A stretch of 23,242 nt of DNA, taken from the IMG/VR virus record IMGVR_UViG_3300046811_000099, positions 1-23,242 of that record, one strand, 5' to 3'. This DNA is from a virus. Every line of letters starts with the position of its first letter. Positions within the stretch are counted from its first letter, which is position 1. Positions 2,242 through 21,854 of the stretch are shown one piece after another. The translations under genes were made by a program, and so were the position numbers. A model generated the notes under the pieces. That model made no database searches. It was not told where the DNA came from and saw only the letters and a program-made list of their open reading frames with translations.

Positions 2242-2729
2242 CCCGTAAATTTGCCGAGGACACGATTGTCCCGGTTGCCAAGTCGCGCAGTGAAATCGAG
2301 GCGCTGGTGACGAAGCACGGCGCCACGAAGTTCATGAGCTTCTTCGAGGAAGGGCGCGCGGTCATTGCCTTTGGGATGAAAGACCGGCTTGTGCGGTTCA
2401 CGATCACACTACCCGACCGCAAGGACCGCAAGTTCACGCACACCGCGCACAAGGATACATGGAACCAGTACCTGCGCAACGCGGACCAGCAGGAAAAGGC
2501 GTATCAGGCTGAGCTGCGTCGCATTTGGCGGGCTCTTTTGCTCGTCATCAAGGCGAAGCTCGAAGCCGTGCACAGTGAGATCACCACGTTCGAGCAGGAG
2601 TTCCTGCCGTTCATCGTCCTGGCGGACGGCCAGACCGTCGGGGAGACGATCATCCCGCGTCTGAACGGGCAGGCCGGGAGCCTCGACATTACGCGCATGC
2701 TGCCCATGCCAACCGGAGGCGACGAATGA
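2238..2729 (+). CDS. Conserved phage hypothetical protein
   Basis: A 163-residue protein with an ATG at 2238 (ATGA overlap) and AGGAGA upstream. Its N-terminus (FAEDTIVPVAKSRSEIEAL, then HGATKF and AVIAFGM) matches a protein type I recognise as widespread in tailed-phage genomes, often near replication or recombination genes; no biochemical role is established to my knowledge. The middle (IWRALLLVIKAKLEAVHSEI) is helical, and the C-terminus contains FLPFIVLADGQTVGE. No transmembrane segment or cysteine cluster is present. Confident as a real gene, function unknown. Confidence 0.85.
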   Translation: MTRKFAEDTIVPVAKSRSEIEALVTKHGATKFMSFFEEGRAVIAFGMKDRLVRFTITLPDRKDRKFTHTAHKDTWNQYLRNADQQEKAYQAELRRIWRALLLVIKAKLEAVHSEITTFEQEFLPFIVLADGQTVGETIIPRLNGQAGSLDITRMLPMPTGGDE

Positions 2730-3091
2730 CCAACGTGAAATGGATACTCGCTCCGGTGGTGTGTCTGCTGATGGTGGGACTGTCGGGATGCGACGACGAT
2801 GAGACGGTGCACAAATTATTCCCGAGCGACGGCGATCAGAGCGCGTGGAGGGTGGATACCACGACGACGATCACGAGGACCGGCGCGAAGGTGGACACAA
2901 CCGTGAGTATGTCCTGCCTGTACGCGACGCTCCCGAATGGTTGGTGGGGCGGCGTGATTACCGTCGAGAAGCGCGTCGGCTTTTACGAGATTGTTGACAA
3001 CGGCCGATGGAGTAACAACACCATCACTCTATCACCGGCTCAGGCGAGGGCGCTCGCGTCTCTCATCGACCGCGCGGAGATGCGGAAGTGA
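2726..3091 (+). CDS. Putative phage-encoded lipoprotein
   Basis: A 121-residue protein with ATG at 2726 overlapping the previous stop and GGAGG at 2715-2719. The N-terminus is a lipoprotein signal peptide: a hydrophobic stretch (residues 6-18) ending in lipobox L19-S20-G21-C22. Asp23 directly after the lipidated Cys would favour inner-membrane retention in a diderm host by the Lol +2 rule. The mature part is acidic, then beta-rich, with a Thr-rich stretch (VDTTTTITR). Phage lipoproteins are usually o-spanins or superinfection-exclusion proteins. This one is larger than Rz1-type spanins and sits among DNA metabolism genes, so exclusion or an envelope role is the better guess, without direct proof. 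It is coupled to the membrane protein gene that follows. Confidence 0.72.
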   Translation: MTNVKWILAPVVCLLMVGLSGCDDDETVHKLFPSDGDQSAWRVDTTTTITRTGAKVDTTVSMSCLYATLPNGWWGGVITVEKRVGFYEIVDNGRWSNNTITLSPAQARALASLIDRAEMRK

Positions 3092-3513
3092 TTACGTTCC
3101 GCATTGTTCCCGATTCTCTCAACGGCGTCATCCATGAAGGCCTTACGCCCGCCGGCATGGATTCGCTGAAAACATTTCAGGTGATCAGGCACGAAGTGTA
3201 CCGCGCGCCCGTCATAACGCTTCACCAGCCCGCTAATTTTACCAGCGGGACCATCACGTTCGCGCTGCCGCCGGAGCACCACTGGTGGTTCTACGTGGTT
3301 ACGGGCGTCGTGATTCTATTGGCACTTTTAGCGGTGATCGAAATCTGCGACTGGTGGCAGTGGCGAAAGACGGAGAAGCTAGTACCCGCAGCTCATCCAG
3401 AGCGCGGCCACGACAAACAAGAGGATGATAACGAAGGACAGGATCGACCACACATGGTCGCGATGGGGGCGCATGGGACTAATGATAGCGCGGACGAAGG
3501 AGAGCTTCAATGA
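3088..3513 (+). CDS. Single-pass membrane protein
   Basis: A 141-residue frame with GTG start overlapping the lipoprotein stop. The N-terminal 60 residues are polar and lack a signal peptide. One transmembrane segment lies at about residues 66-86 (FYVVTGVVILLALLAVI), flanked by aromatic belts (HHWW and DWWQW), followed by a short basic stretch (RKTEK). The last ~45 residues are very hydrophilic (His, Asp, Glu, Gln, Gly) with codon third positions far less G/C-rich than elsewhere, so this tail may be weakly constrained. Pairing with the upstream lipoprotein suggests a two-component envelope function. A holin role is not supported, since there is a single long soluble domain and no neighbouring endolysin. 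Confidence 0.65.
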   Translation: MITFRIVPDSLNGVIHEGLTPAGMDSLKTFQVIRHEVYRAPVITLHQPANFTSGTITFALPPEHHWWFYVVTGVVILLALLAVIEICDWWQWRKTEKLVPAAHPERGHDKQEDDNEGQDRPHMVAMGAHGTNDSADEGELQ

Positions 3514-8054: not shown

Positions 8055-8099
8055 CGATTCCACTTGACGCGCCACGGCGCTGGAGATTATGCAGCAGCG

Positions 8100-10040
8100 G
8101 TGAAGACGCCCGAGAAGAAGTCCAGTTCACGTCGCGCGTCACGCACGCCCACACACCACAATCCCGTCCAGCTCGCCGACGGTGGGGCTGCCGCCATCAA
8201 GACCGGCAAAGAGTATGCATCCTTTGCCGGCATGTCCGTCGCGGGCTTCAGCGCCACCGGCACCGGACCCCTGATCAACATGATGCCCGTCATCGGTCAG
8301 CGCGGCCACCAGGCTGTCGACCAGATGATGACCGACGACACGCTCGGCACGTGCATCGAGATCAAGAAGCGCGCGGCGCTCTCGACACCGTGGTCGTGGG
8401 AGGCGGCGAGCGATGATCCCGAGCACCAGAAAGACCAGCAATACCTGACCCGCGTCTTTGACCGGCTGGATTCCGCCGAGCAGGACGAGAACGGTGTCAA
8501 CGTCGGCGTCGTCAATAAGCTCCGCGACATCCTCTCGAAGATCGAGCACGGCTACAGCGTGACGAACATCCTGTTCGACGTGATGGAGGACGGCGACTTC
8601 GCTGGGTCGTACGGCCTGGCGGACCTCAAAACGAAGCCGCCGCACTTCTTCACCTTCGAGACCGACCAGTTCCTGAATCTGAAACCGGATGGGATCATCC
8701 ACAACTACACCGACAAACTGCCGGTCGACCAGTTCCTGGTCGCGACGCACGATCCCCGGTTCAACAACGTGTACGGGTACAGCGAATGCATCCGCGCGTA
8801 CGAGCCGTGGAACTACAAGAAAATGTTCCAGCGCATGCGCGCCGTTCGCCTGGAGCGGTTTGCCTCCGGGACGCTTGACGCGGAAGAGAACAGCCAGGAT
8901 CCACCGAGCGCCGGCGAGCGTGCGAACGTCGACTCGCTGGGCCGCGGCATGCAGGCGAAGAGCTACATTCGCCACACCGACAAGATCAAGATCAGCATCC
9001 TCGAAGCGGCCTCGGGCACGGACGACTTCGCCGCGGCGATCACCGACCAGAATATCCAGATCGCCCGCGCGGTCTTCTTTCCCGACAAGATGGGCTTCTC
9101 AGCGGGCGACAAGGCGGGCGGTGCCTACGCCATGTCGAAAACGCACCTCGACACGTGGGTGCAGATCGTGACATCGCTCCAGCGCGACCTGGCCGTGCAG
9201 ATGAAGCGGCTGGGGAGAAAGCTGATCGTCGCATCGTTCGGCGTGCGCGACAAGTATCCGAACTTCGTGTTCGGCGATATGACCGAAGAGCAGGTCGGGG
9301 CGTTCGTGACGCAGGTGGTGCAGCTCACGACCGCAGGCTACCTGGACCCGCTCGACACGACAGTGCGCAAGAAAGTCCGCGAGCTGATGGAGTTCCCGGA
9401 GGAAGAGGACGCGACGGTCGAGCAGATGCGAAAAGAGCGCGACGCAAAGAGGAAATCCATGAACCAGAAGCAGACCGATCCCAACGCGGACCCGAACGCC
9501 GATCCGCAGGCCGGGGGCGACACGCAGAATTTTGCGGAGGACGACGGCCGGGTAAGTGACGGCGGCATTGATTGCGATTCGCTCGACGGCAGACTGTTCG
9601 CCGCCGCTGATCCCGAGACGACCATCACGGCGGCGATCGCCGCCATTCAGGCGGCTCCCGGAGGCGTCGTCATCGTTGGCGGGCCCAAGTCCGGCAAGTC
9701 CACGATCGCGTCGGTGGCGGCCGAGCGGTTCAAGATTCGCGCGCGCTACGGCGACAACCTGATCGGGCAGATGGGCTGGTCCGCCATGTCGGACACCGTG
9801 GCCGAGTGGTTCGACGCGCCGGGCAAGTGGATCGTCGAGGGCGTCGTGACCGTGCGTGCAATTCGCAAGTGGCTCTCGTTCCACCCGGACGAGACGCCGC
9901 CGTTCACGATCATCGTGCTCTCCGGTTCGATCCAGAAGCGCAGCCCCGGCCAGTCCGCGATGGCTGCGGGCGTGACGACGATCTGGAACGAGATTCAGCC
10001 CGAGCTGGAAGCGCGGGGCGCGACGGTGGTGATGGTGTGA
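8100..10040 (+). CDS. Portal protein (DUF935/Mu gp29-like) with C-terminal P-loop domain
   Basis: A 646-residue protein when started at GTG 8100; a TTG at 8064 would add 12 residues, and neither has a convincing Shine-Dalgarno. The first ~440 residues match DUF935-type portals, with TDDTLGTCIEIKKRAALSTPW, IEHGYSVTNILFDVMEDG, EPWNYKKMFQ, KTHLDTWVQIVTSLQRDLA. The portal forms the dodecameric DNA channel at the capsid vertex. A flexible linker with (NADP)2 repeats follows. The last ~126 residues are a kinase/AAA-like P-loop domain with Walker A GGPKSGKST at 527-535, WIVEGVVTVRAIRKWL, and GQSAMAAG. This resembles small phage ATPases I know as separate proteins. An internal start at 9459 could release the domain. 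Confidence 0.87.
   Translation: MKTPEKKSSSRRASRTPTHHNPVQLADGGAAAIKTGKEYASFAGMSVAGFSATGTGPLINMMPVIGQRGHQAVDQMMTDDTLGTCIEIKKRAALSTPWSWEAASDDPEHQKDQQYLTRVFDRLDSAEQDENGVNVGVVNKLRDILSKIEHGYSVTNILFDVMEDGDFAGSYGLADLKTKPPHFFTFETDQFLNLKPDGIIHNYTDKLPVDQFLVATHDPRFNNVYGYSECIRAYEPWNYKKMFQRMRAVRLERFASGTLDAEENSQDPPSAGERANVDSLGRGMQAKSYIRHTDKIKISILEAASGTDDFAAAITDQNIQIARAVFFPDKMGFSAGDKAGGAYAMSKTHLDTWVQIVTSLQRDLAVQMKRLGRKLIVASFGVRDKYPNFVFGDMTEEQVGAFVTQVVQLTTAGYLDPLDTTVRKKVRELMEFPEEEDATVEQMRKERDAKRKSMNQKQTDPNADPNADPQAGGDTQNFAEDDGRVSDGGIDCDSLDGRLFAAADPETTITAAIAAIQAAPGGVVIVGGPKSGKSTIASVAAERFKIRARYGDNLIGQMGWSAMSDTVAEWFDAPGKWIVEGVVTVRAIRKWLSFHPDETPPFTIIVLSGSIQKRSPGQSAMAAGVTTIWNEIQPELEARGATVVMV
9448..9461 (+). promoter_or_regulatory. 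Internal ribosome-binding site and ATG for P-loop domain
   Basis: AGAGGA at 9448-9453 lies 5 bases before ATG 9459-9461, in frame with the portal gene. Initiation here would give a 193-residue product containing the linker and the complete P-loop domain. The portal's own start has no comparable signal. Whether it is used cannot be told from sequence. Confidence 0.45.
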
Positions 10041-10237
10041 GCAACCACGGCGCGGAATGTCTTTGCTCGCGGTGTTCGCCGCTTCGTTCGATCTATGTGG
10101 CCGAGGCGGAGCAAGACCGACTCGCGAGCCGCTTGTTGAAGGCGGTAGCGCTGGATGCTGCGTCGGCTCTTGAGCGCGAGATAGAGCAAGATTGTCAACC
10201 CGACGAACGCGACCTCATGCGGGAGGACTGGCTGTGA
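10037..10237 (+). CDS. Small cysteine-containing protein
   Basis: A 66-residue protein whose GTG start overlaps the portal stop (GTGA). It begins MSNHGAECLCSRCSPL, a C-x-C-x2-C cluster near the N-terminus, followed by a long predicted helix rich in Ala, Leu and Glu; a fourth Cys is in EQDCQPDE. Possible metal binding, but the spacing fits no standard zinc finger. Its stop overlaps the GTG of the next gene. Function unknown. Confidence 0.6.
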   Translation: MSNHGAECLCSRCSPLRSIYVAEAEQDRLASRLLKAVALDAASALEREIEQDCQPDERDLMREDWL

Positions 10238-10434
10238 GCGACTTTAGGCCGATAGAAGTCCCGACGTTTCTATGTCCCGACTGCCGCCAGCGCGCATCGG
10301 AGCGCGCAATCCTTGTTCGCGTCGATTCGCCCGAGATTGGCTTCGCCTGTCTGACGTGTCGGCATCAATGGGTCTACAACCCACAGACGAAGGAAACGCG
10401 CTGCGTCATGCGGGCGAATGTGGCAACCCCATGA
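10234..10434 (+). CDS. Small zinc-ribbon protein
   Basis: A 66-residue protein with GTG at 10234 overlapping the preceding stop. Two knuckles, CPDC and CLTC, are separated by about 23 residues, followed by RHQWVYNPQTKETRC. This is the pattern of a small zinc ribbon such as those of nucleic-acid-binding or scaffold-like phage proteins. The stop overlaps the next ATG. It belongs to a run of four tiny overlapping genes after the portal; role unknown. Confidence 0.65.
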   Translation: MSDFRPIEVPTFLCPDCRQRASERAILVRVDSPEIGFACLTCRHQWVYNPQTKETRCVMRANVATP

Positions 10435-10643
10435 GCACCGTCCTCATCACCCTCCGCGACGGGGAGACCATCAAGGCCCCTCTGTCTGACTTCAACGTGC
10501 ATGCCTATTCTCTCCGGACAGACGGGGCCATTCGCATTATCACGGCGGCGGAAGTGGCCAGCCTGGTATTGGCGCCTGAGACGGAGAACGCCACCGATGG
10601 CGGTGGAACGGGCGGGAAGCCCGAGCCGGAGCCGACCGAATGA
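10431..10643 (+). CDS. Small hypothetical protein
   Basis: A 70-residue protein, ATG overlapping the previous stop. The N-terminal two thirds look like a small beta-rich fold (VLITLRDGETIKAPLSDF, then GAIRIITAAEVASLVL). The C-terminus is a Gly/Pro/Glu-rich tail (GGGTGGKPEPEPTE). No Shine-Dalgarno is seen, so translation probably depends on coupling to the upstream gene. Not recognised. Confidence 0.6.
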   Translation: MSTVLITLRDGETIKAPLSDFNVHAYSLRTDGAIRIITAAEVASLVLAPETENATDGGGTGGKPEPEPTE

Positions 10644-10894
10644 ACATCCCCTTCGGCGCCACCGTCCGCGACGAGATCACCGGCATGATCGGCATCGTGA
10701 TCGCGCGCACCGAGCACATGACGGGGCACGTGTACTGCGGATTCATCCCGCGCAGCAACGACACCCCGACCGTCGAACCGGCGCTCGTGTGGATCGCGCA
10801 GGAGCGGTTGCAGGTGCTCGACTACGAGCTCTTGAAACTCCCCGGCGATCATCGTGACGTTGAAAATCTTGCGGCGCAGGAGAAATTGTCTTGA
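10640..10894 (+). CDS. Conserved small phage protein (GxxVxDxITGxxGIV type)
   Basis: An 84-residue protein with ATG overlapping the previous stop. Its opening FGATVRDEITGMIGIVIARTEHMTGHVYCGF matches a short phage protein family I recognise by its V.D.ITGF.GIV.AR..Y.TG pattern, followed by WIAQERLQ. These are thought to be small beta-barrel proteins of unknown function, frequently encoded near virion genes. It is the last gene before the structured non-coding gap and the terminator, so it closes the terminase-portal transcription unit. Confidence 0.7.
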   Translation: MNIPFGATVRDEITGMIGIVIARTEHMTGHVYCGFIPRSNDTPTVEPALVWIAQERLQVLDYELLKLPGDHRDVENLAAQEKLS

Positions 10895-10935
10895 CGGGGT
10901 ATCAGAGAAAACCGTAAGTAGCGCGTAGACATTCC

Positions 10936-10956
10936 AGCGCGGCTTGCAACCGCGCT
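10936..10956 (+). other. GC-rich hairpin
   Basis: AGCGCGG (10936-10942) is the exact reverse complement of CCGCGCT (10950-10956), with a 7-base loop CTTGCAA. It lies 15 bases upstream of the terminator stem and could be a separate RNA fold or protect a 3' end. Confidence 0.6.
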
Positions 10957-10971
10957 TTGCTAAAAGGTTCG

Positions 10972-11010
10972 GCTATCGCAAAGGTTCGACAACCATGCGA
11001 TGGCTTTTTT
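10972..11010 (+). terminator. Rho-independent terminator after the portal cluster
   Basis: GCTATCGCA (10972-10980) pairs with TGCGATGGC (10996-11004) over nine positions including one G-U. The loop contains a further four-pair stem, GGTT with AACC. Six T residues follow at 11005-11010, then GTTTG. The stem plus T-run is typical of an intrinsic terminator on the + strand. Confidence 0.72.
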
Positions 11011-11087
11011 GTTTGTACAGACCATGCACGGGGCGGGCGGGCACGCTTGCCTTTTGGCGCTCGTTACGGGGTTTGAGTCGAACCTTT
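10980..11087 (+). repeat. 11-bp inverted repeat overlapping the terminator
   Basis: AAAGGTTCGAC at 10980-10990 is the exact reverse complement of GTCGAACCTTT at 11077-11087. The left arm sits inside the terminator loop and stem end, so the long-range pairing and the terminator hairpin exclude each other. AAAGGTTCG at 10963-10971 is a second possible partner for the right arm. Confidence 0.75.
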
Positions 11088-11088
11088 C

Positions 11089-11100
11089 CCCGCTAGCGGG
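11089..11100. other. 12-bp perfect palindrome
   Basis: CCCGCTAGCGGG is perfectly self-complementary and lies 31 bases before the ATG at 11132. It could be an operator-like binding site or a short hairpin. No homologous site is seen elsewhere in the window. Confidence 0.5.
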
Positions 11101-11131
11101 CGCCTCTTCTTTCTGGGCGGTGACGCGCTAA

Positions 11132-11389
11132 ATGGCCACCGTCACCTATACCCGCAGCTATTCCGTCGACACCATCATCTGGGACGGGACCAACCTCGCC
11201 GAGATTGTCGCGCTCTGCGGCGCCAACGCGGTCGAGCAGGTTTGGAATCCCGGGACCGCCACGACGCGGCTGCGCGTCTTCAACACGGACATTTCCATCG
11301 GTGAAGCCGTCGCCGTCATCCACGGCACGACAACCCCGCCCGGCACCGGGCGTAAGTACGTCCCGGGCGATCCGGAGTACAGCCTGTGA
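11132..11389 (+). CDS. Small protein of the tail-module paralogue type
   Basis: An 85-residue protein, first gene after the terminator, with a weak GGGCGGTGA before the ATG. The core VDTIIWDGTNLAEIVALCG, a short strand (RLRVFNTD) and GEAVAVIHG recall the small phage beta proteins with pattern V.A..W.G.N..EI....G ... G..... and resembles the genes at 20983, 21244 and 21531. Its stop overlaps the GTG of the protease gene, so the two are probably coupled. Role unknown. Confidence 0.62.
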   Translation: MATVTYTRSYSVDTIIWDGTNLAEIVALCGANAVEQVWNPGTATTRLRVFNTDISIGEAVAVIHGTTTPPGTGRKYVPGDPEYSL

Positions 11390-12933
11390 AGAAGCTGAGC
11401 CGGAAACAACTCACCGCGAAGGTCAAAGCCGATTGGGCCAAGGTGGACGCGCTCGCCAGCGCTCCCGATTGCGTGGAGCTCTGCTATGTCGAAGCCGTGG
11501 GCGATGCCTACGCGGTCAAGTGGAAGCAGTACCCCGAAACGATGGGCGAAGCCGTCACCATCGACACGTTCAACGATCCCAAGCAGGCCGCTGACTACTG
11601 CGCGCTGATGAACCAGATGCGCATGGATTCCTTGCGCATCGACGCATTGAACACGGCCGGCGATCTCGAGGACGCAAAAGAAGAAGCCGCGGCCGACGCC
11701 ACGCTCGACAATTACGGGCTCTCGGAATGCGAGTACGCATCCCCTGATGGTTCCGATCCCCTCCCGACCAAGGACCTGCACGACGTGCCGATGCTCGACG
11801 CGGGTACCTGGCGCTCGATGTCCGGGGAGACGGTCACGTTCACGAAGAAGGACCTGGCCGAGCTCGTCGCCAGCTTCAACGCGACCAAGGACGTTCTCAA
11901 GCCCTTCGCAAAGCTCGGCCACATTTTTGACGAAGACCAGCGCGCGCGGACCGGTGCGCCATCGGTGGGACGCATGGCGAACCTGCGTCTCACGAATGAA
12001 GGCAACCGCATCATTGGTTCGCTCCTGAACGTGCCGCTCAAGCTGGCGCGCTTGATGGAAGCCAAGAGTTACACGCGGCTATCACCCGAAATCTTCCGCG
12101 ACTTCAAGGACGCAAAAGGCAAGGTCTATCGCCTCGCCTTCAAAGCGGTGTCCATCCTCGGGGCAACACTCCCGGCCTGTCACACGCTCGACGACATCAT
12201 CGTGAACCTTTTCGGCGAGGGCGCGCGCGCGACCGCCATCGCGCCGGTATCCACCGGAACGGTGATCGCGCTCTCCGAACCGATTCAGCAGGAGGAATCA
12301 GTCATGACGAAAGACCAGTTGATCCAGCTCGCCACGTCGCTCGGCCTTCCGGCGACCGCGGACGAAGCGACGATTCTTGCCGCGGCTGCCGCACTCCGGC
12401 GCGCGCACACCGAGTCCGCCGAGCAGCTCGAAACTGCCCAGCGCACCGAACTCGCGGCCGGCATCACGACGCAGCTCACGCGCGCCAAGGCCGAGGGCCG
12501 GATCATGCCGCAGCAGGAGAACGGCCTGCGCGAGATGGTCAACGGCTGGGTGAAGGACGCGACCAACGACGATGGCCGTCTTCAGACGGTCGAGTTCGCC
12601 GCCACGGTCGACGGCAACACCGTCACCAAGAAGGGCACGATCGTCGAGAAGTTCTCGGCGTTCGTGGACCAGCTCCCGGTCGTGTTCAAGCACGTCACCG
12701 AGCTCGGTAGCGGCGAGCAGGACGACAACAGCAACCTCGGCAACGGTGTCGCGCGCGACACGCTGCGTTTCGCCGCGGGAATGCTCGGCCGCCAGATCGG
12801 TTTCGATCGCGGCTCTCTGGAGCGCGATCGCCGCATCAAGGCGTACGCCAACAAAAACAATCTCCGCAAAGCAGACGGCACGATCGATTACTGCGCGGCG
12901 TACACCGCCGTCGTGGTCGAAGGGGCGGTGTAA
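11386..12933 (+). CDS. Head maturation protease/scaffold (Mu I-like)
   Basis: A 515-residue protein with GTG at 11386 overlapping the previous stop. Residues 1-130 are an unrecognised N-terminal extension. The protease region has PFAKLGH at 173-179, GAPSVGRMANLRL after it, and YTRLSPEIFRDF near 229-240, followed by LAFKAVSILGATLPA, matching the Mu-like prophage I protease pattern. It would cleave scaffold and capsid precursors during head assembly. From about residue 300 the protein becomes helical and charged, typical of scaffold. A strong internal ribosome-binding site at 12290 precedes an in-frame ATG at 12304, so the C-terminal part is probably also made alone. It lies directly upstream of the decoration and major capsid genes. 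Confidence 0.85.
   Translation: MKKLSRKQLTAKVKADWAKVDALASAPDCVELCYVEAVGDAYAVKWKQYPETMGEAVTIDTFNDPKQAADYCALMNQMRMDSLRIDALNTAGDLEDAKEEAAADATLDNYGLSECEYASPDGSDPLPTKDLHDVPMLDAGTWRSMSGETVTFTKKDLAELVASFNATKDVLKPFAKLGHIFDEDQRARTGAPSVGRMANLRLTNEGNRIIGSLLNVPLKLARLMEAKSYTRLSPEIFRDFKDAKGKVYRLAFKAVSILGATLPACHTLDDIIVNLFGEGARATAIAPVSTGTVIALSEPIQQEESVMTKDQLIQLATSLGLPATADEATILAAAAALRRAHTESAEQLETAQRTELAAGITTQLTRAKAEGRIMPQQENGLREMVNGWVKDATNDDGRLQTVEFAATVDGNTVTKKGTIVEKFSAFVDQLPVVFKHVTELGSGEQDDNSNLGNGVARDTLRFAAGMLGRQIGFDRGSLERDRRIKAYANKNNLRKADGTIDYCAAYTAVVVEGAV
12290..12306 (+). promoter_or_regulatory. Strong internal Shine-Dalgarno for nested scaffold
   Basis: AGGAGG at 12290-12295 is spaced 8 bases from ATG 12304-12306, in frame with the protease gene. 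It is among the best ribosome-binding sites in the window, although it lies inside a gene. Confidence 0.8.
12304..12933 (+). CDS. Nested scaffold protein (in-frame internal start)
   Basis: Initiation at ATG 12304 gives a 209-residue protein identical to the C-terminus of the protease gene product. It starts MTKDQLIQLATSLGLP, continues with Ala/Glu/Arg-rich helices (AAAAALRRAHTESAEQLETAQ), and ends near DYCAAYTAVVVEGAV. In Mu (I/Z) and lambda (C/Nu3) the scaffold is likewise made from an internal start of the protease gene. The scaffold would guide major capsid protein assembly and then be degraded by the protease. The ribosome-binding site directly supports this; the expression itself is inferred. 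Confidence 0.72.
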   Translation: MTKDQLIQLATSLGLPATADEATILAAAAALRRAHTESAEQLETAQRTELAAGITTQLTRAKAEGRIMPQQENGLREMVNGWVKDATNDDGRLQTVEFAATVDGNTVTKKGTIVEKFSAFVDQLPVVFKHVTELGSGEQDDNSNLGNGVARDTLRFAAGMLGRQIGFDRGSLERDRRIKAYANKNNLRKADGTIDYCAAYTAVVVEGAV

Positions 12934-12939
12934 CGAGAC

Positions 12940-13374
12940 ATGGCAGCAATCACTCTTCCGTTTGATTTCCCCGGTCTGTTCCGGGGCCAGGCTCTCTCGT
13001 ACTACTCGGGCGCGGCGATCAAAGAAGGCTTTGCCTGCGTTGTCGCCGGAACGGCCGAGAACGAAGTCATCGAGTCGCCCGGGACCAACCTGGTCTCCTT
13101 CGGCTTCGTCCGGTACAACACCGGCAAGAGCTACGCCGTCGCCGGCAACGTCGCTCAGATCCCCATCGCGACGGTCATCAGCGTCTTCGTCAGCGGCATC
13201 GTCATCGCGGTCGCCAGCGCGGCCATCGCCAAGAATGCGCGCGTCGGCACCGCGGCCAACGGACAGGTCGTGACCGCGACCAATGCGAATCCCTACGTCG
13301 GCATCGCGCGCACCGCGGCGGCCAACGCGGGCGAATATTTCGCACTCGAAATCACCAACGGCTCGGGTGCGTAA
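12940..13374 (+). CDS. Capsid decoration/cement protein (DUF2190-like)
   Basis: A 144-residue protein starting 6 bases after the protease stop and ending 25 bases before the major capsid ATG. It is glycine/alanine/valine-rich with repeated short strands (AIKEGFACVVAGTAENEVI, VSVFVSGIVIAVASAAI) and ends ANAGEYFALEITNGSGA. This matches the head-stabilising proteins of the DUF2190 type that often sit between protease/scaffold and major capsid genes. Expected location is the outer capsid surface at three-fold or quasi-three-fold axes. The upstream Shine-Dalgarno is weak. Confidence 0.65.
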   Translation: MAAITLPFDFPGLFRGQALSYYSGAAIKEGFACVVAGTAENEVIESPGTNLVSFGFVRYNTGKSYAVAGNVAQIPIATVISVFVSGIVIAVASAAIAKNARVGTAANGQVVTATNANPYVGIARTAAANAGEYFALEITNGSGA

Positions 13375-13399
13375 CCCAGGAAAGACGAGGAAAACGAAC

Positions 13400-14422
13400 A
13401 TGCGAAACAATCTGATTCATGCTCGCTCGCCGCACGAAACGGACATCGTCTACCTGGCGGATCGCCTGCACAACCAGGAGCCTGACTTCTTGGAGTTCGC
13501 CACCGCGGCCGGCGTCGTCGTGCAGGAAGACCTGACCAATCTGGCGCGGGCCTACAAGCCCGAGTCGATGGGACTCATCGCCGATATTGTGGCGCCGGTA
13601 CGCGGCGTCACCACCGAGGCGGGACGCTATACGGCGTTCGGTCAGGAAGGTTTCGACATCGACACGAGCGACGCGCTCGCCGATGACGCCGAAGCCGGGA
13701 CGATCGATCTCGCGGCCGAAAAGGTCAGCTACCAGATTGACCCGCGCGGGCTGCAGGCGTTCATCAGCGACCGCCTGGTGCGGCAGATGCCGAACCTCGT
13801 CGCGATGACGATCAAGCGTCTGAAGTTTGCGCTGCTGCTCCGCATGGAGATTCGTGTGCGCAATCTCGCCGACGCCGCCTCGGGCGCGATGGTCTCCGCG
13901 AACCTCACGAACTTCGACTCGAGCACGCAGACGCTGCAGGACATCGCGGCCGCCATCTCGGCGTTCGAGGCCAACCTCGGCCTTTCGCCGAATCTCTTCG
14001 TCATGCCGAAAAACGCGGCAGACATCTGGGTCGCGAATCCGGACCTGCGCGCGAGCATCGCGGCCGCCACGGCGGTGCAGGACGGCCGGAAGTGGATGGG
14101 CCTCATCACGTCGAAGGGGCTCGACGCCAACAACCCGCTCGGCATGAACATGGTGTTCCCGAACGCGTTCTACACGAACTCGGCGCCGGGTGCGGCGCGC
14201 ACGAAGACCCGCCTGTGGGCCAACGACGCGTACCTGATCTATCAGGACACGGAGACGGAATCGTCCTCGTGGGCGGTGCAGCTCTCGTACCTCGAGCCGA
14301 CGGTCGTGTCCTGGCGCGAGGAATCGCGCGGCACCGGCGGTGCCATGTACAAGGTCTATTTCCAGCGTCTCGAGAAGCAGCTGACGCCGGAGTCGATCTA
14401 TAAGCTCCTGTCGATCATCTAA
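13400..14422 (+). CDS. Major capsid protein
   Basis: A 340-residue protein starting at ATG 13400 with GACGAGGA upstream; the frame is open from 13283, but that would overlap the decoration gene. It shows features of HK97-fold capsid proteins: an N-terminal helical part, a core (DALADDAEAGTIDLAAEKVS, ISDRLVRQMPNLVAMTIKRL), and a C-terminal domain with WANDAYLIYQDTETE and LEPTVVSWREE. Position after protease/scaffold/decoration and codon use typical of highly expressed genes support this. It lacks an obvious long N-terminal delta domain, consistent with a separate scaffold protein. Confidence 0.88.
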   Translation: MRNNLIHARSPHETDIVYLADRLHNQEPDFLEFATAAGVVVQEDLTNLARAYKPESMGLIADIVAPVRGVTTEAGRYTAFGQEGFDIDTSDALADDAEAGTIDLAAEKVSYQIDPRGLQAFISDRLVRQMPNLVAMTIKRLKFALLLRMEIRVRNLADAASGAMVSANLTNFDSSTQTLQDIAAAISAFEANLGLSPNLFVMPKNAADIWVANPDLRASIAAATAVQDGRKWMGLITSKGLDANNPLGMNMVFPNAFYTNSAPGAARTKTRLWANDAYLIYQDTETESSSWAVQLSYLEPTVVSWREESRGTGGAMYKVYFQRLEKQLTPESIYKLLSII

Positions 14423-14444
14423 CGCCACGAGAAAGGAAGGAATC

Positions 14445-14873
14445 ATGGCGAACGAACGAGTCTACAAGGTTCTCGTGCCCATCCACGGGGGTGGGCACGA
14501 GGCCGTCGAAGTGTTGAAGCTCTCCGGCCCGATGGTGCAGAACCGCATCATCCCGGCCGGATCGATCATCAAGTTCACCGGCGAGTACGACGAGTCGAAT
14601 CTCATCGATCGCGGCGTCATCGAAGCGACCACGGCGGCCGCTGCCAAAACCGAGAAGCCGAAGGGTGGAAACGGCAACGGCAAGGCCGCGAAGGATGCCG
14701 AGGCGGACGACGACGACGAGACCGACGAGGACACCGACGACGCCGGCGAGGGCGAGGGCGAGACGGTGACCGCGCCGAAGCACGCGAATCCGATCCCGAC
14801 TGGCGAAAAGCCGGCCAAGGTCCAGAAGAAGCAGCCGCTGCCGAAGCACGCGAATCAGATCCCGACCGCATAA
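14445..14873 (+). CDS. Acidic accessory protein after major capsid gene
   Basis: A 142-residue protein with a strong AAGGAAGGA before ATG 14445. The N-terminal ~65 residues look folded (YKVLVPIHGGGHEAVEVLKL, IIPAGSIIKFTGEYDESNL). The remainder is low-complexity: an Asp/Glu run (ADDDDETDEDTDD), a Gly/Glu stretch, and two copies of PKHANxIPT. It is probably a small head-associated protein with a disordered tail, found next to the capsid gene in many phages. No named family is recognised. Confidence 0.65.
   Translation: MANERVYKVLVPIHGGGHEAVEVLKLSGPMVQNRIIPAGSIIKFTGEYDESNLIDRGVIEATTAAAAKTEKPKGGNGNGKAAKDAEADDDDETDEDTDDAGEGEGETVTAPKHANPIPTGEKPAKVQKKQPLPKHANQIPTA
14775..14866 (+). repeat. Direct repeat encoding PKHANxIPT
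   Basis: A 26-base segment at 14775-14800 recurs at 14841-14866 with one base difference. Both copies are in frame and encode PKHAN-(P/Q)-IPT. This suggests a recent in-frame duplication in the tail of the accessory protein. Confidence 0.85.
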
Positions 14874-14889
14874 GCAGGAGGACAGGTCC

Positions 14890-15237
14890 ATGAAGCGCCT
14901 TCTGGTTTTCATTGTCATCATGGCGCTGGCCACCGCTGTCTTTGCGAAGACGCGGCTAAAGCAGTTCCGCATCGAGCCCGGTGACGCTACCAATCCGCAA
15001 ACGGTCTCGATCGTGACGACCTATGGCGTGCGTGCCACATCGTGGATCGCGAGCGCTGGCAATAGCGATGTGACGATCAAGCTGCACGGCCTGGATGGAC
15101 GAGCGGGCACGTGGCAGACCATCCGCGCCGGTGACAAGCTCAAGGTCACCAATAACGACTACCCCGTCGATACGCTCATCGTGCTGCGTTCGTCCACGAG
15201 TGGCAGCTTCGATTTCACCATTCTCGGGGCGGAGTAA
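14890..15237 (+). CDS. Small exported protein with Sec signal peptide
   Basis: A 115-residue protein with CAGGAGGA before ATG 14890. Residues 1-19 form a classical signal peptide (MKRLLVFIVIMALATAVFA) with cleavage expected after Ala19. The mature ~96 residues are beta-rich (TVSIVTTYGVRATSW, DVTIKLHGLDGRAG, SGSFDFTILG) and have no cysteine. A signal peptide is unexpected among capsid genes, because virion proteins assemble in the cytoplasm. It precedes another exported protein by 3 bases, so the two probably act together outside the cytoplasm or at the envelope. Family not recognised. Confidence 0.72.
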   Translation: MKRLLVFIVIMALATAVFAKTRLKQFRIEPGDATNPQTVSIVTTYGVRATSWIASAGNSDVTIKLHGLDGRAGTWQTIRAGDKLKVTNNDYPVDTLIVLRSSTSGSFDFTILGAE

Positions 15238-15240
15238 GCG

Positions 15241-17034
15241 ATGCGTCTCACCCGACGACTCACGGCCGCCATTTGTGCGGCGGAACTCTGCACGGCGGCG
15301 ATGATCATGCTTGGCATGTCGCACGACGCGGCGGCGGATATTGATCTGACGCGAAATGGTAGTAGTTCATCGGTCTCGACCAACAGCACGGAGCAGGACA
15401 CGCTCTGCGCGACGCTGTCTTTCGATTTTGACGACAACTACAAAGAAGATTTCGACTCGGCGGGCGCTTTCCGCTATCCGGGACATTGGAACTATGTAGC
15501 GGGCCTCACCGTTGAGCCGCAGAGCTGCCGCGTTTCTACCGGCGGCGATACGACAAACAATCTATCCCTCGCCAAGATTCAGGCGCTTTACCGCCGCGGT
15601 TGGTCGATGGGTACGGTTGGATGGGATGAGAAGGGCAGTCTCTACTCACAGTTCAGCGGCAAGGTCGCGACTGGAAACTTCACGAGCGAAAACGCTTTCC
15701 GCGACAACCTGCACGCGGCCGTCTTGTCGATGCGAGACACACTCGGAATCGGCGCGCCGCAATGGATCAGTTGGAGCTTTTCATCGGCAACGTTCTGGCA
15801 GGAGCGGCTCGCGCGCCTCGAAGGGATCAACTACGGATTCACCGGCGTTGGAGCCGCGAGCGGATCGTCCACGGATGGCTGGCGTCCCAATGCACCCTGG
15901 GCGTACGGCAGATGGTCAACGCCCGAGACGGTCGTCGGCGGCGATACGACGTCCGATGGCATTTTGTGCTGCGCTCTCCCCGGGTTGCATGACGACCCGA
16001 TGCAGATGGCCGGTGTCATCGGCGAAAACACGGATTCGCTCACGTTCAAGCGAGTCATCGCCAAGGCAGTGGCGAACAAGTCGATGGTCTTCTGGTGCGG
16101 CCACAAGCTGAGCACATGGGACTTAAACCTCGACGGGCACCTTGACGGACCGGGCGGCACCAACGACGGAAAGCTGCGCACTGCCAAGCAGTGCATCGCG
16201 TGGGTGACGAAAACATACGTCAAGACCGGGAAGCTCCGGATCGTACCGCTGCACGAAGCGTTCCAGATGTATTGCTCGCGTCCGATCTCGCCCACTGCGA
16301 ACTACATCAACACTGAGTTTGAGGATTTCGATCACTTCTACATGAACCCGAGCGGCACCGCGCGCGTACCCGATAACTGGTTCTCGTGGACGAGCGGCAA
16401 TGATCCGGCTGGCAGAACTCGCGCGGCTATTAGCTGGCCCAAGACTGGCGGTTACGGTGGCCATAAGTACGTCACGATGAAGTGGGCACCGAACACCGCG
16501 CGCGCCTTCTGGGGCTTGGGGCCGACCAAGCGGCCATGGTTCAACCAGATGATGGTGGCGCCCGTGTTCTGCCCTCCCGGCGGAAATTACATCGCGCACG
16601 TGGAAGTCTGGATGATCGCCGACACGACTGTCTCGGGATGGGCGGGAGGAACCGCTCCACAGCTTAACGACTCGGTCGGCGTCGCGTTCTACGGCGTCAC
16701 GATGGATACGTGGAACGATTACGCGGGCAACTCGCCCAAGTTCCAGATCGCGGGGTCGGAAGCGGGCGGCGGCATGCTCTTCACGGGCAACTATTACGTC
16801 GGGCCCAACTCGAACCGATGGGGACAGACGACGGTCGCGGCGAACGGCAGAAAGCTGAATGCGCGAAACAACATCAGCCGCACGGGCCACGAATGGGCGC
16901 ACGTCACCGCGTCCTTTCGATACCCAGGCGACAGCCAGATTCTCATGATCAATCTATGGAAGGGCAACCAGATCCCGAGCGACGGAATCCGCGTGTCCTA
17001 CCCATATGTCACATTCGAGAAGATCGCCAATTAG
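15241..17034 (+). CDS. Secreted NodB/CE4-like (polysaccharide deacetylase fold) protein
   Basis: A 597-residue protein with ATG at 15241, three bases after the previous stop. An N-terminal signal sequence (residues 1-32, ending SHDAAA) is followed by a CE4-like domain. This includes ATLSFDFDDNY at 57-67 (the FDD motif that supplies catalytic and metal Asp residues), LSLAKIQALYRRGWSMG near 108-124, His288 in FWCGHK, and VPLHEAF near the domain end. The usual HxxxH after the Gly is absent (GWSMGTVGWD), so metal binding may differ or be lost. The C-terminal ~230 residues, Trp/Tyr/Gly rich, resemble a beta-sandwich carbohydrate-binding module. Such proteins remove N-acetyl groups from glycans. 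In a phage this suggests modification or recognition of the host surface. Confidence 0.58.
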   Translation: MRLTRRLTAAICAAELCTAAMIMLGMSHDAAADIDLTRNGSSSSVSTNSTEQDTLCATLSFDFDDNYKEDFDSAGAFRYPGHWNYVAGLTVEPQSCRVSTGGDTTNNLSLAKIQALYRRGWSMGTVGWDEKGSLYSQFSGKVATGNFTSENAFRDNLHAAVLSMRDTLGIGAPQWISWSFSSATFWQERLARLEGINYGFTGVGAASGSSTDGWRPNAPWAYGRWSTPETVVGGDTTSDGILCCALPGLHDDPMQMAGVIGENTDSLTFKRVIAKAVANKSMVFWCGHKLSTWDLNLDGHLDGPGGTNDGKLRTAKQCIAWVTKTYVKTGKLRIVPLHEAFQMYCSRPISPTANYINTEFEDFDHFYMNPSGTARVPDNWFSWTSGNDPAGRTRAAISWPKTGGYGGHKYVTMKWAPNTARAFWGLGPTKRPWFNQMMVAPVFCPPGGNYIAHVEVWMIADTTVSGWAGGTAPQLNDSVGVAFYGVTMDTWNDYAGNSPKFQIAGSEAGGGMLFTGNYYVGPNSNRWGQTTVAANGRKLNARNNISRTGHEWAHVTASFRYPGDSQILMINLWKGNQIPSDGIRVSYPYVTFEKIAN

Positions 17035-17048
17035 GCGGGGAGCAAATA

Positions 17049-17966
17049 ATGATCCTCGTCGATTGCATGTCCCGTGGCACGACGTCGCAGGCGGAAGCTG
17101 ATTTCCGCAACAGCCACTTCCAGGTCCACATCGCGCAGGTGGAACTGTACCCGCTGACCGGAACGCGGTTTGAATACTGCCGTCCGTTCTGGGCGAACGA
17201 CTTCCTACTGCACCCGTTGGGACTTCCGACCTTGCCGATCCCTGGTGGCACCGTATTCGACCTGACGCTGCTCTCGACGCGAAATGCCATCGTGACCGCG
17301 CTCGTCAACCGGGTGAACACGCTGGGTGTCGAGGGCCTGTTCATCGATACCTATCTGCAGTTCGCGACCGGGCAGGACGCCCAGGCGATTGCACTTCTGA
17401 CCGCACTCAAGGCGGCGCTCGCACCTAAGATTTTGATGCTGAACGCTGGCGATCTTCTTACGTGGGCCACCACGACGCCGGGAACCGTGCTGACGATTCA
17501 AAATCTGATCCCGTATCAGTTCGTGCAACTCGCGTTCGACGTGGACCCGGCGAGCACGCTGCCCAGCCAGACGGCACCCTATAACACGCGGTTGGCGCTA
17601 CTCGAAAGCACACTGGCCGCGCGAAGTGCGGCAGGTTGTCACGTCACCGTGGGTCTCTTTGACGCGAACGGTGTGCGCGCGCAAGCGGCGTACAACCTGA
17701 TGCTAGAACTCTCGGCCTATTCCAACACGTCGCTCTTTTACGCCACGGTCGCGTTCTCAGACACCCTGCCGATCCGGCAATTCCAGTGGTGCGAGGCGAT
17801 CCCCGAGGGAGATGTCGACGAGGCGATCCCGACACTCGCTATCGGGACGGCGGATGACGCAAGGGCGGTCAGTGGGATGCATGCGCTCTGCGCGACCGGC
17901 GCATCCGCCAGCACTGTTTACCGCGCTGGTGGGACGAAACCCGAACCACAACCGGATCAACCCTGA
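17049..17966 (+). CDS. TIM-barrel glycoside hydrolase-like protein
   Basis: A 305-residue protein from ATG 17049, with GGGGAG at 17037-17042. The frame is open from 16710, but the earlier part overlaps the CE4-like gene. Alternating strands and helices suggest a (beta/alpha)8 barrel: ILVDCMSR, HFQVHIAQVELYP, VNTLGVEGLFIDTYLQ near 90-104, PKILMLNAGDLL, YQFVQLAFDVD, GCHVTVGLFD. The GLFIDT segment with Asp100 recalls the catalytic-strand region of GH114/GHL-type glycosidases, though I cannot assign the acid/base residues. No signal peptide is present, unlike the two genes before it. Together with the deacetylase-like gene it may degrade or bind host glycans as a virion part. Confidence in the fold is moderate; specificity is unknown. 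Confidence 0.45.
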   Translation: MILVDCMSRGTTSQAEADFRNSHFQVHIAQVELYPLTGTRFEYCRPFWANDFLLHPLGLPTLPIPGGTVFDLTLLSTRNAIVTALVNRVNTLGVEGLFIDTYLQFATGQDAQAIALLTALKAALAPKILMLNAGDLLTWATTTPGTVLTIQNLIPYQFVQLAFDVDPASTLPSQTAPYNTRLALLESTLAARSAAGCHVTVGLFDANGVRAQAAYNLMLELSAYSNTSLFYATVAFSDTLPIRQFQWCEAIPEGDVDEAIPTLAIGTADDARAVSGMHALCATGASASTVYRAGGTKPEPQPDQP

Positions 17967-18328
17967 TGTATGCCACCGTCTTTCAAATTGCCGTCGGGAA
18001 TCTGAAACCCGCGATCCCGATCAGTCTCGTGGAACGCGGGACGCATGACGCGGCCGATGTCGCCGGCGCCACCGGATTCAAGTTCTCGATGGCGAAGATC
18101 AAAGATGATGGCACGCGTGACACGCCGAAAATCAACGGCGCCAACGTAACGCTAACGTCACTCGATCCTCCCATCGTGACCTATCAGTGGGCGGGGTTGG
18201 ATACCGACACCGCCGGGCAGTACGCGAGCTGGGTCGATGTCGCATTCGGGACCGGATTCACGCAGGTCCAGACATTCGACGGCCCCGTGATCGAAGTCTA
18301 TGCGAAGGGCGATAAGGTGGCGCGCTGA
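17966..18328 (+). CDS. BppU-like small Ig-type structural protein
   Basis: A 120-residue protein whose ATG shares one base with the previous stop (TGATG). The sequence has a beta-sandwich look: GFKFSMAKIKDDGTRD, VTLTSLDPPIVTYQWAGLDTDTAGQYASW and a closing strand VIEVYAKGDKVA. The Y.W...DTDTAG.Y segment is typical of BppU N-terminal-like domains widespread near phage head-tail genes. It may be a virion decoration or tail-attached protein. It is coupled to the connector gene downstream. Confidence 0.62.
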   Translation: MYATVFQIAVGNLKPAIPISLVERGTHDAADVAGATGFKFSMAKIKDDGTRDTPKINGANVTLTSLDPPIVTYQWAGLDTDTAGQYASWVDVAFGTGFTQVQTFDGPVIEVYAKGDKVAR

Positions 18329-18798
18329 TGGCCGTCTACACGAGCACCGGCACGTTCAACGAACTCTTCTTCCCGACGGTGACGCCCAAGCCGTCTCCGG
18401 AGCAACTCCAGCGCGCCGCCGTGATTGCCTACAACTACATCAACGCGCGGCTGGATGGCATCTACCCGGTTCCGTTTGCGTCCGCGCCCGGACTGATCGT
18501 GGACATCTCAGACCTTCTGACCAAGTGCTATGCACGCGCAATCTCGCTCGGCAATACGCCGACGACGCCCAAGAAAGTGCCGCGCGACAAGCCCGGCGCC
18601 GACGGTTGCGGCATCGCTGTTGTGATGCTCGACGATCTCGTCGCCAACCGCGCGCAGCTTCCTGGTATCAGCCGTCTCAATGGCGCCGACGGCGCGACCG
18701 AGCGCACCGGTGGCACCACGTTTGACATCGACGATCCGATCGACCACGTGCCACCGCGGTCGGTGCTGGATGAGATTGCGAGCGAGCGCAATACATGA
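18328..18798 (+). CDS. Head-tail connector (gp36/DUF1320-like)
   Basis: A 156-residue protein with ATG sharing one base with the preceding stop. The pattern AAVIAYNYINARLDGIYPVPF, then PGLIVDISDLLTKCYARAI, matches DUF1320/gp36 head-completion adaptors, which bind under the portal and link it to the tail. The C-terminal part is Gly/Thr-rich then acidic. Location directly before the morphogenesis and tail completion genes agrees with the usual order of Mu-like heads. Confidence 0.78.
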   Translation: MAVYTSTGTFNELFFPTVTPKPSPEQLQRAAVIAYNYINARLDGIYPVPFASAPGLIVDISDLLTKCYARAISLGNTPTTPKKVPRDKPGADGCGIAVVMLDDLVANRAQLPGISRLNGADGATERTGGTTFDIDDPIDHVPPRSVLDEIASERNT

Positions 18799-19400
18799 GC
18801 AACGGACTGGAATACACGCTGAACTCCAGCGACATCGCGCCGCATCTCACGGGCTTCATTCGCTCGCTTGGATTGGGGCCGGTGGAACTCAAGGTTCCCC
18901 TGGAGAAGTGGGGCAAGTACTACATCGCCCAGATGCCGCAGATGTTTCGCCGGTCGGGGCGCGACGGTGTGCATTGGACCTCCTTGTCGGCGTCCACGCG
19001 AGCAGGACTGCGCGCCCGGGGGATACAGGGCGCGCTTCCGCTCTTTCGCACCGGCGCCATGATGCGATCCATCCGCACGGAAGGTCACGTTGGATTTGGC
19101 ACATACGAACAGCAAATCATGAGCGATGACCCGAACATCGGATTCCACCAGGGCGGGGCGCATCTGCCGGCGCGCACATTCGGACCGAGAAACGCGCAGG
19201 CGCTGCGGTTCCGCATCGGCGGTAAGTGGGTCTATGCCAAGAAGGTCACGATCCCGGCGGCCAATATCCCCGCGCGTCTCGTGCTCTTCATCGCGGAGAC
19301 CGACCACGCGAAGGCCGTCCAGTTCCTGCTCGAGCAGATCAAGAAGCTCATCAACGCGGGCTGGCAATACGTGCCTGCGAGCTCACTGGAGGCCGCATGA
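18795..19400 (+). CDS. Phage virion morphogenesis protein (gpG/gpS type)
   Basis: A 201-residue protein, ATG overlapping the previous stop. Diagnostic elements of the virion morphogenesis/tail completion family are present: WTSLSASTRAGLRARG, LFRTGAMMRSI, then GFHQGG (116-121) and PAR (125-127), and near the C-terminus ANIPARLVLFI. It is longer than the typical ~150 residues because of an inserted stretch (LRFRIGGKWVYAKKVTI) between the two PAR motifs. These proteins act in joining head and tail and are found in the same position in Mu-like phages. Confident in family; the exact step is not shown by sequence. Confidence 0.82.
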   Translation: MSNGLEYTLNSSDIAPHLTGFIRSLGLGPVELKVPLEKWGKYYIAQMPQMFRRSGRDGVHWTSLSASTRAGLRARGIQGALPLFRTGAMMRSIRTEGHVGFGTYEQQIMSDDPNIGFHQGGAHLPARTFGPRNAQALRFRIGGKWVYAKKVTIPAANIPARLVLFIAETDHAKAVQFLLEQIKKLINAGWQYVPASSLEAA

Positions 19401-20464: not shown

Positions 20465-20986
20465 ATGACGGCGACCGGCCTCAGCCTTGACGACGAGCGA
20501 GCGCTTGTCCTGGAGATGACCGATTTGCCACCGCATTTCGCTCTCTTCCAGGACGCGCTCGAACTCGGGTCTTGGTGGCAGGACGTCGAGTGGGCCGCGA
20601 TGCTCATGTCGCGTGGCGTCTGGTACGACAAGCCGTACAACACGGAAGACTGGACCCGAAAGATTGAGGTAAAGGTGCCGTTCACGCTGAAGTATACCGA
20701 GCGCTTGATCGGCAAGATCTACGTGGGCACGCCGCGCGAGCGCGAGGCGGTCTACATCAAGTTCGGGATCGGCGGCAACATCGGTCTGGAGATACGGGGA
20801 AAGCTCAACGACTTCCTGAACGCGCAGTTTGTCCCGCGCGATGACGACCGGCTGAAGGCGCTGAAGATCCTGACCGACGTGTACCGCGAAGCGAAAGAAT
20901 TCCACCGCGGGCTGCGCGATGTGAAGCATCTCGACGCCGCGGGGCAGCAGACAATCAACATGAATCCACAGGTGGTACCGGCATGA
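20465..20986 (+). CDS. Tail-module hypothetical protein
   Basis: A 173-residue protein starting 6 bases after the major tail stop, with no good Shine-Dalgarno. It is mainly helical and charged, with tryptophans (ELGSWWQDVEWAAMLMSRGVWYDKP), a basic region (RLIGKIYVGTPREREAVYIKF) and a C-terminal helix (EAKEFHRGLRDVKHL). No enzyme motif, signal peptide or membrane segment is visible. Its stop overlaps the first of three small related genes. Function not recognised. Confidence 0.65.
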   Translation: MTATGLSLDDERALVLEMTDLPPHFALFQDALELGSWWQDVEWAAMLMSRGVWYDKPYNTEDWTRKIEVKVPFTLKYTERLIGKIYVGTPREREAVYIKFGIGGNIGLEIRGKLNDFLNAQFVPRDDDRLKALKILTDVYREAKEFHRGLRDVKHLDAAGQQTINMNPQVVPA

Positions 20987-21240
20987 GCGAAACATGGGTG
21001 AGCAAACCAAAGCACGTCGACGTAGTCGCGTGGGCGCCATTCAACCGCCTGACCGGCGCGGCGTCGAACATTGATGCCGTGGTCGCGGAATCCGGCGTCG
21101 ACGCCGTCCGCTACGTCGGCGGCGATCTGCAGGTCGCGAACCAGACGGCCGAGACCGACGATTTTGTGGGCGAGGACGGCGTGGGCAACCCCGTGCACAA
21201 GACGCCTGGCGAAATCGAAACGCAGTACACGGAGGACTAA
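20983..21240 (+). CDS. Small tail-module protein, paralogue 1
   Basis: An 85-residue protein, ATG overlapping the previous stop. The core VVAWAPFNRLTGAASNIDAVVAESG shares FNRLTGxASNID with the next gene product, followed by a short strand (GGDLQV) and an acidic tail ending ETQYTED. This is one of three consecutive, clearly or probably related genes between the major tail protein and the tail chaperone. It might be a tail-tube decoration or assembly protein; no direct evidence. Confidence 0.65.
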   Translation: MSETWVSKPKHVDVVAWAPFNRLTGAASNIDAVVAESGVDAVRYVGGDLQVANQTAETDDFVGEDGVGNPVHKTPGEIETQYTED

Positions 21241-21243
21241 GCC

Positions 21244-21504
21244 ATGACGACCTTCAATCAGAACTCGATCACGCTGCAGGTGGAAGAATACTCCGCGTTC
21301 AACCGTCTGACGGGCGAGGCGTCGAACATCGACACGATCGTCGCGCTCGTGCCCGACAACGTGGTCTACAAGGAAGGAAAGCTCACCATCCTGGGTGCGC
21401 GCGAGGCGCTGGATGGCGAGAAGGTGACGTGGAACGACGACCTCGCGGTGGCGGGCGTCAAGACCGCCGCCGAGCTGTCTGCGGACTTCAGCAGCTCACC
21501 ATAA
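21244..21504 (+). CDS. Small tail-module protein, paralogue 2
   Basis: An 86-residue protein starting 3 bases after paralogue 1. The sequence VEEYSAFNRLTGEASNIDTIVAL closely repeats the motif of paralogue 1. The following strand (GKLTILGAREALDGEKV) takes the place of GGDLQV. The similarity points to tandem duplication and divergence. Ends AELSADFSSSP. Role unknown. Confidence 0.65.
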   Translation: MTTFNQNSITLQVEEYSAFNRLTGEASNIDTIVALVPDNVVYKEGKLTILGAREALDGEKVTWNDDLAVAGVKTAAELSADFSSSP

Positions 21505-21530
21505 TCACGACTTTCACGGAGGAATAAATC

Positions 21531-21854
21531 ATGTCCGCAATTCTCGACAAGGAAATCAAGCCCGTAGCGGTGAAGGCGCGCCAGTACACGACGACCAACA
21601 AGGGCGAGATCGAAGCGCTCGTGGGCTGCGATCAGATCAAGGTCGAAAACGGCGTGTTCTACGTGCGCACACCATCCGGTTGGGTGGAGTGCGCGAACAA
21701 CGATTACGTCATCTGCTACGCGCCGACGGACTATGTCGCAGCGGACCCGGATGCCGATCCCGATCCGATCGCGGAAGTGCCGTTCGTGCCGGGCGTCGTC
21801 ATCGAGGTGACGAACGGAGCGGGTCTGACGGCTCGTTACCAGGATCCCGCGTAG
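21531..21854 (+). CDS. Small tail-module protein, paralogue 3 (PGDWI-like pattern)
   Basis: A 107-residue protein with a good GGAGGA before ATG 21531. The core KPVAVKARQYTTTNKGEIEALVG, then GVFYVRTPSGWVECANNDYVIC, recalls a widespread small phage family with pattern KPV.V.A.Q....N..EI....G....G.L.I.T..G.......D.I. It aligns by position with paralogues 1 and 2, which are more diverged. A C-terminal extension contains ADPDADPDPIAEVPFVPG. Function unknown. Confidence 0.65.
   Translation: MSAILDKEIKPVAVKARQYTTTNKGEIEALVGCDQIKVENGVFYVRTPSGWVECANNDYVICYAPTDYVAADPDADPDPIAEVPFVPGVVIEVTNGAGLTARYQDPA

Follow-up and report, generated by a model that had tools for sequence, protein, structure and literature searches.

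Gene content of the capsid-to-neck region

The head module of an uncultured virus, IMGVR_UViG_3300046811_000099, raises the question of what a block of genes other than connector genes is doing in the stretch that separates the major capsid gene of a phage from its neck genes. Among the proteins encoded by the whole record of 23,242 bases, hereafter the window, are a head maturation protease, a major head protein and a portal of the Mu type (PF06074, E 9.9e-35). An earlier annotation made from the letters alone (the sequence-only reading) had placed here an inserted glycan-processing cassette, consisting of a small Sec-exported beta protein, a Sec-exported CE4-like protein and a TIM-barrel glycosidase-like protein. 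All three genes are indeed present at this place (Table 1), and their coordinates hold except for the start of gene 3, now set at 17049; a longer GTG frame starting at 16710 overlaps gene 2.

Table 1. Genes from the major capsid gene to the neck genes of the window, with amino acid identities to the related contig L002.
Feature	Position	Strand	Remarks
Major capsid protein	13400..14422	+	phrog_1005, E 7.7e-25; left border of the slot
Acidic accessory protein	14445..14873	+	between the capsid gene and gene 1; diverged in L002 (32%)
Gene 1, small beta protein, predicted to be Sec-exported	14890..15237	+	115 aa; constant member of the slot; 43% identical in L002
Gene 2, probable Sec-exported protein	15241..17034	+	597 aa; possibly CE4/NodB-like at about residues 45-205
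Gene 3, orphan without signal peptide	17049..17966	+	305 aa; GGGGAG, then ATG
Small protein	17966..18328	+	right edge of the slot; no family match; 42% identical in L002
Probable head-tail adaptor	18328..18798	+	phrog_195, weak, E 0.048; 49% identical in L002
Neck1/tail completion protein	18795..19400	+	phrog_26, E 3.8e-5; 55% identical in L002; right-hand conserved block

Genes 1 to 3 belong to a single, tightly spaced run on one strand which leads from the major capsid gene to the neck genes, the successive intergenic gaps along it measuring 22, 16, 3, 14, -1 and -1 bases. As a test for a moron, which would bring its own promoter and terminator, positions 13300-18400 were scanned: no sigma-70-like promoter was detected (other promoter types being outside the scan), and terminator-like sites occurred in a number expected by chance.

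Exchange of the slot contents in a related phage

The only relative found was IMGVR_UViG_3300046514_000137 (referred to here as L002), a 19.9-kb virus contig which, like the window, breaks off within the tape measure gene. The two head modules are colinear, with protein identities of 66% for the terminase, 57% for the portal, 72% for the capsid protein and 82% for the tail tube, and with a DNA similarity of ∼67-72% along the head module. This similarity stops at position 14421, where the capsid gene is about to end, and is picked up again from 18411, within the gene of the probable adaptor, leaving a break of ∼4 kb. The acidic protein, gene 1 and the gene at 17966 are kept inside the break in the same order, but in diverged form; since their products are only 32-43% identical as compared with the conserved flanks, identity drops from both sides towards the pair formed by genes 2 and 3. 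The products of the latter two show no detectable similarity to the proteins encoded at the same place in L002 (tblastn best E 0.86; shuffle Z ∼0), and homology of gene 3 with its positional counterpart, considered separately, was rejected as undetectable by sequence (Z 0.2).

Because L002 retains gene 1 and the gene order, yet has unrelated second and third proteins, the capsid-to-neck slot is, as judged from the sequences, a cargo-exchange slot in two related uncultured phages. An assembly oddity is excluded by the second phage, in which the slot is found again together with the small gene. The survey of gene neighbourhoods which the sequence-only reading had proposed yielded one phage with the slot, gene 1 kept and genes 2 and 3 replaced, and supports its view in so far as the block is not made up of conserved connector genes. 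The term “inserted”, in turn, understates the situation, as the slot is occupied in both phages of the clade and it is the contents that differ.

The comparison rests on these two phages. Alignment scans with the capsid, tail-tube and terminase proteins returned L002 only, as did the scan with gene 1, a weak one that relied on signal-peptide patterns, and the capsid and terminase alignments gave no match when run against genome contigs. Neither viral contigs nor phages yielded relatives of genes 2 and 3, and plasmids yielded none of gene 2. In both phages the slot shows a reduced third-codon GC; since some of the neighbouring genes show the same dip, this is weak evidence of foreign origin.

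Putative export signals and the second gene of L002

The N-termini of the predicted genes of both phages were scored by hydropathy, charge and cleavage site in a simple scan devised ad hoc, used in place of a SignalP-type predictor; a Sec signal should show a positive n-region, a hydrophobic core and small residues at -3/-1. Gene 1 starts with a textbook Sec signal, MKRLLVFIVIMALATAVFA|K, the hydropathy of which (3.37) is the maximum for the window; with its L002 counterpart (3.48) it forms the strongest pair across both phages. For comparison, a lipoprotein-like gene at 2726 scores 3.01. The N-terminus of gene 2 is a plausible but weaker Sec signal (2.07), with a Glu within the hydrophobic stretch, and this value alone is not decisive because values above 2 are also reached by a few genes with cytoplasmic or structural products, e.g. 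the L002 gene at 7999 with 2.50. In the same scan gene 3 displays no signal-like N-terminus. Of the two signal peptides claimed earlier, the one on gene 1 is therefore clear in both phages, whereas that on gene 2 is the weaker by this simple measure.

The second gene of L002 (10237-12057) encodes a member of the right-handed beta-helix family, matching Pfam Beta_helix (PF13229) above its curated cut-off of 25.9 bits both as a whole protein (27.4 bits, E 3e-6) and with its N-terminal part (33.7 bits, E 3.4e-8). Right-handed beta-helices are a common fold in phage depolymerases. The start of this gene was taken, by our choice, as the ATG at 10237, since the longest frame, starting at GTG 10102, would overlap L002 gene 1 by 149 bases; with the ATG start the protein has a clear signal-like N-terminus (hydropathy 2.82). 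The best argument that export matters is that two unrelated proteins at one place of the slot both bear a signal-like N-terminus. The third gene of L002 codes for an orphan of 453 aa.

Genes 2, 3 and 1 examined for glycan-related folds

Gene 2 has no match in Pfam or NCBIfam, and its N-terminal part gave no hit to the PF01522 model at E 10; a genome search with that model was negative as well. A CE4 profile was built from four CE4 domains, one from E. coli PgaB and the others from three relatives in the PDB. Aligned to it with hhalign, gene 2 covers 141 columns with the motifs in CE4 order, between FDDNY and the motif-3 region, with a score of 18.5. This score was equalled by 12 of 300 shuffles, a figure left uncorrected for the facts that the segment had been picked after a CE4-motif search and that single-sequence comparison, hmmsearch and hhalign were all tried; none of the 300 shuffles aligned over at least 120 columns, and a capsid decoy outscored gene 2, over 30 columns. 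With hmmsearch and the same profile gene 2 performed no better than shuffles, while single-sequence comparisons with PgaB and ArnD were non-discriminating, two known CE4 proteins scoring no better than gene 2. The metal-binding His-x-x-x-His of motif 2 is absent, the aligned region reading MGTVGWDE, and the sole match of the HxxxH type lies in the C-terminal part, at residue 550. A single-sequence AlphaFold2 model of gene 2 was discarded (pLDDT 30.6).

As it can be seen, the N-terminal part of gene 2 is at the borderline of detection and may possibly be CE4/NodB-like, but the CE4 assignment made by the sequence-only reading was not established. If the fold is that of CE4, the protein would be a divergent or non-catalytic member. 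Compared with CE4 deacetylases of the PgaB type (E. coli PgaB, PDB 4f9d), gene 2 can be aligned colinearly between the FDD motif and the region of motif 3, and differs in the missing motif-2 histidines, the borderline score and the absence of a Pfam hit. PgaB itself unites a CE4 part with a glycosidase part.

In the case of gene 3, no family model matched, and the best enzyme match, a chitinase, had an E value of 0.42, i.e. at chance level. Inspection by eye suggests a putative TIM-barrel-like fold for the third genes of both the window and L002; the TIM-barrel glycosidase proposed for gene 3 by the sequence-only reading was likewise not established.

For gene 1, AlphaFold2 run with the two sequences produced an all-beta model (pLDDT 66.5, pTM 0.59). 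None of the solved structures stood out in a fold search, as the best of them, a domain of the dengue envelope with a Z of 6.5 and an rmsd of 3.0 over 89, was within the range common among unrelated models, and the viral fold matches were small uncharacterised phage proteins with E values of 0.03 or worse. A match to FAD_binding_9 (E 0.01, below cut-off) was taken as chance. Binding of glycans by the gene 1 product is a conjecture.

The slot contents probably handle host surface sugars. It might alternatively be supposed that the slot is a recombination hotspot open to any late genes, and that genes 2 and 3 perform some other exported or cytoplasmic function, as would suit their lack of family matches, the borderline CE4 signal, a TIM barrel suggested only by eye and the GC dip seen in both phages. 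The conservation of gene 1 beside swapped genes, the colinear CE4 alignment of gene 2 and its replacement by a signal-bearing beta-helix protein speak against this explanation, which appears improbable. Still less credence is given to the view of the slot products as auxiliary metabolic enzymes, secreted to degrade polysaccharides that feed the host or to break down polymers in the environment. This has been proposed for viruses in soil, from which virus-encoded glycoside hydrolases are reported, one with confirmed endomannanase activity (PMC6786970). Genes 1 and 2 do look exported, as such enzymes would be; the placement and spacing inside the head operon, the absence of a match to known enzyme families and the possible catalytic residues missing in gene 2 make this view very improbable.

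Comparison with other phages and a possible place in the virion

A glycan-type protein in the capsid-to-neck slot is not without precedent, because Bacillus phage vB_BpsS-36 (MH884513) carries between its capsid gene and head-tail adaptor a pectate-lyase-like gene (9769-11445) noted as similar to tailspikes. Unlike the window, this distantly related phage (portal 26.5% identical) has no signal-like N-terminus on that protein and no gene 1 was seen in it. In phages Finn, Riggi and Blastoid the slot holds only a small ORF, and the relative Finn has its annotated tail spike gene after the tape measure; in Streptomyces phage Evy, the tail tube of which is distant, no more than a short hypothetical gene separates the virion structural protein from the adaptor. 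A gene set both exported and exchanged was not found elsewhere in limited searches that included these five phages.

The slot proteins may be thought of as virion appendages, i.e. spikes or decorations of the neck or capsid which act on host glycan during adsorption by binding or cutting it, with the hydrophobic N-termini serving as a structural element or reflecting an unusual incorporation of proteins. Receptor-binding modules are usually swapped, and the slot contents would be swapped likewise. To our knowledge, neither Sec signals nor a pairwise exchange are known for phage decoration and head-fibre proteins. The position of the slot between capsid and neck genes and the tailspike-like gene of vB_BpsS-36 in the same slot fit such appendages. 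So does an FCCH-type insert at about residues 403-475 of the L002 beta-helix protein: Pelagibacter, Vibrio and spring phages have segments with ∼40-53% identity to it in proteins annotated as tail tubular (B) or stabilization proteins, and its occurrence in phage tail proteins is a pointer to a virion role. Host-attachment roles of capsid decoration proteins are documented, and T4 Hoc and phi29 gp8.5, accessory beta proteins that bind surface glycans, resemble the slot proteins by description (PMC7602432). The clear Sec-type signals on gene 1 of both phages and on the L002 beta-helix protein, together with the slot protein of vB_BpsS-36 that lacks such an N-terminus, weigh against a virion location, which on balance is regarded as the main rival explanation, possible but doubtful.

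A possible parallel for the two alternative second genes is offered by the receptor-binding proteins of Klebsiella prophages, among which SGNH deacetylases have been described and glycan deacetylation is an alternative to depolymerisation (PMC13123978). There, as may be the case in the slot pair, a beta-helix and a deacetylase are alternative solutions; the Klebsiella proteins, however, have an SGNH rather than a CE4-like fold, and are tail fibres instead of exported head-module proteins.

Predicted role of the slot

Signal-like N-termini combined with swapped cargo favour the reading in which the slot supplies exported, exchangeable proteins that would attach to or modify glycans of the host surface in the late phase of infection, their activity being a prediction; the confidence placed in it falls a little short of even. 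According to this reading, gene 1 would be the constant part, and the larger, Sec-exported gene 2 with its non-exported partner, gene 3, the swapped one. The slot genes would be transcribed late, together with the capsid genes, and the products of genes 1 and 2 would cross the inner membrane, there to bind or alter the surface or exopolysaccharide of the infected cell itself before lysis, with the presumed benefit that the progeny are not trapped or that the cell is not re-infected. Replacing gene 2, possibly CE4-like here and a beta-helix in L002, might re-tune the module to another host glycan. Against this reading stand the simplicity of the hydropathy scan by which export is predicted, the lack of a signal on gene 3, the Glu in the putative signal of gene 2, the chosen start of the L002 beta-helix gene, the FCCH-type insert, the borderline CE4 match with its higher-scoring capsid decoy, and the small number of phages, two.

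A wider proposition, that the lineage reserves a slot of its head operon for exchange, in which a constant small exported protein is accompanied by interchangeable, Sec-exported glycan-modifying partners acting at the cell surface, is considered rather unlikely. Were it true, host-range or release traits would be swapped outside the tail-fibre locus. Phage glycan-active proteins are mainly sought among tail-tip genes, and an exchange slot in the head operon, if its constant partner is exported, would add another site at which to look for determinants of host range and release, as well as a source of polysaccharide-active proteins missed by current family models.

Other features of the two phages

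Several further features of the window were recorded. The C-terminus of the acidic accessory protein (14445-14873) consists of a repeated peptide, KHANPIPTG followed by KHANQIPTA. The portal ORF (8064-10040) has a C-terminal P-loop-like extension (9543-10040) with the sequence GGPKSGKST and a match to AAA_18 below cut-off (E 0.013); the extension is kept in L002, where the loop reads GGPKTLKTT. Upstream of RusA, at positions 2726-3513, an ORF resembling a lipoprotein gene (lipobox LSGC) precedes another that has a membrane-spanning stretch; no family match was obtained. Finally, three tandem small genes located after the tail tube gene (20983-21854) look mutually paralogous, as judged from cross hits, and the same holds for L002.
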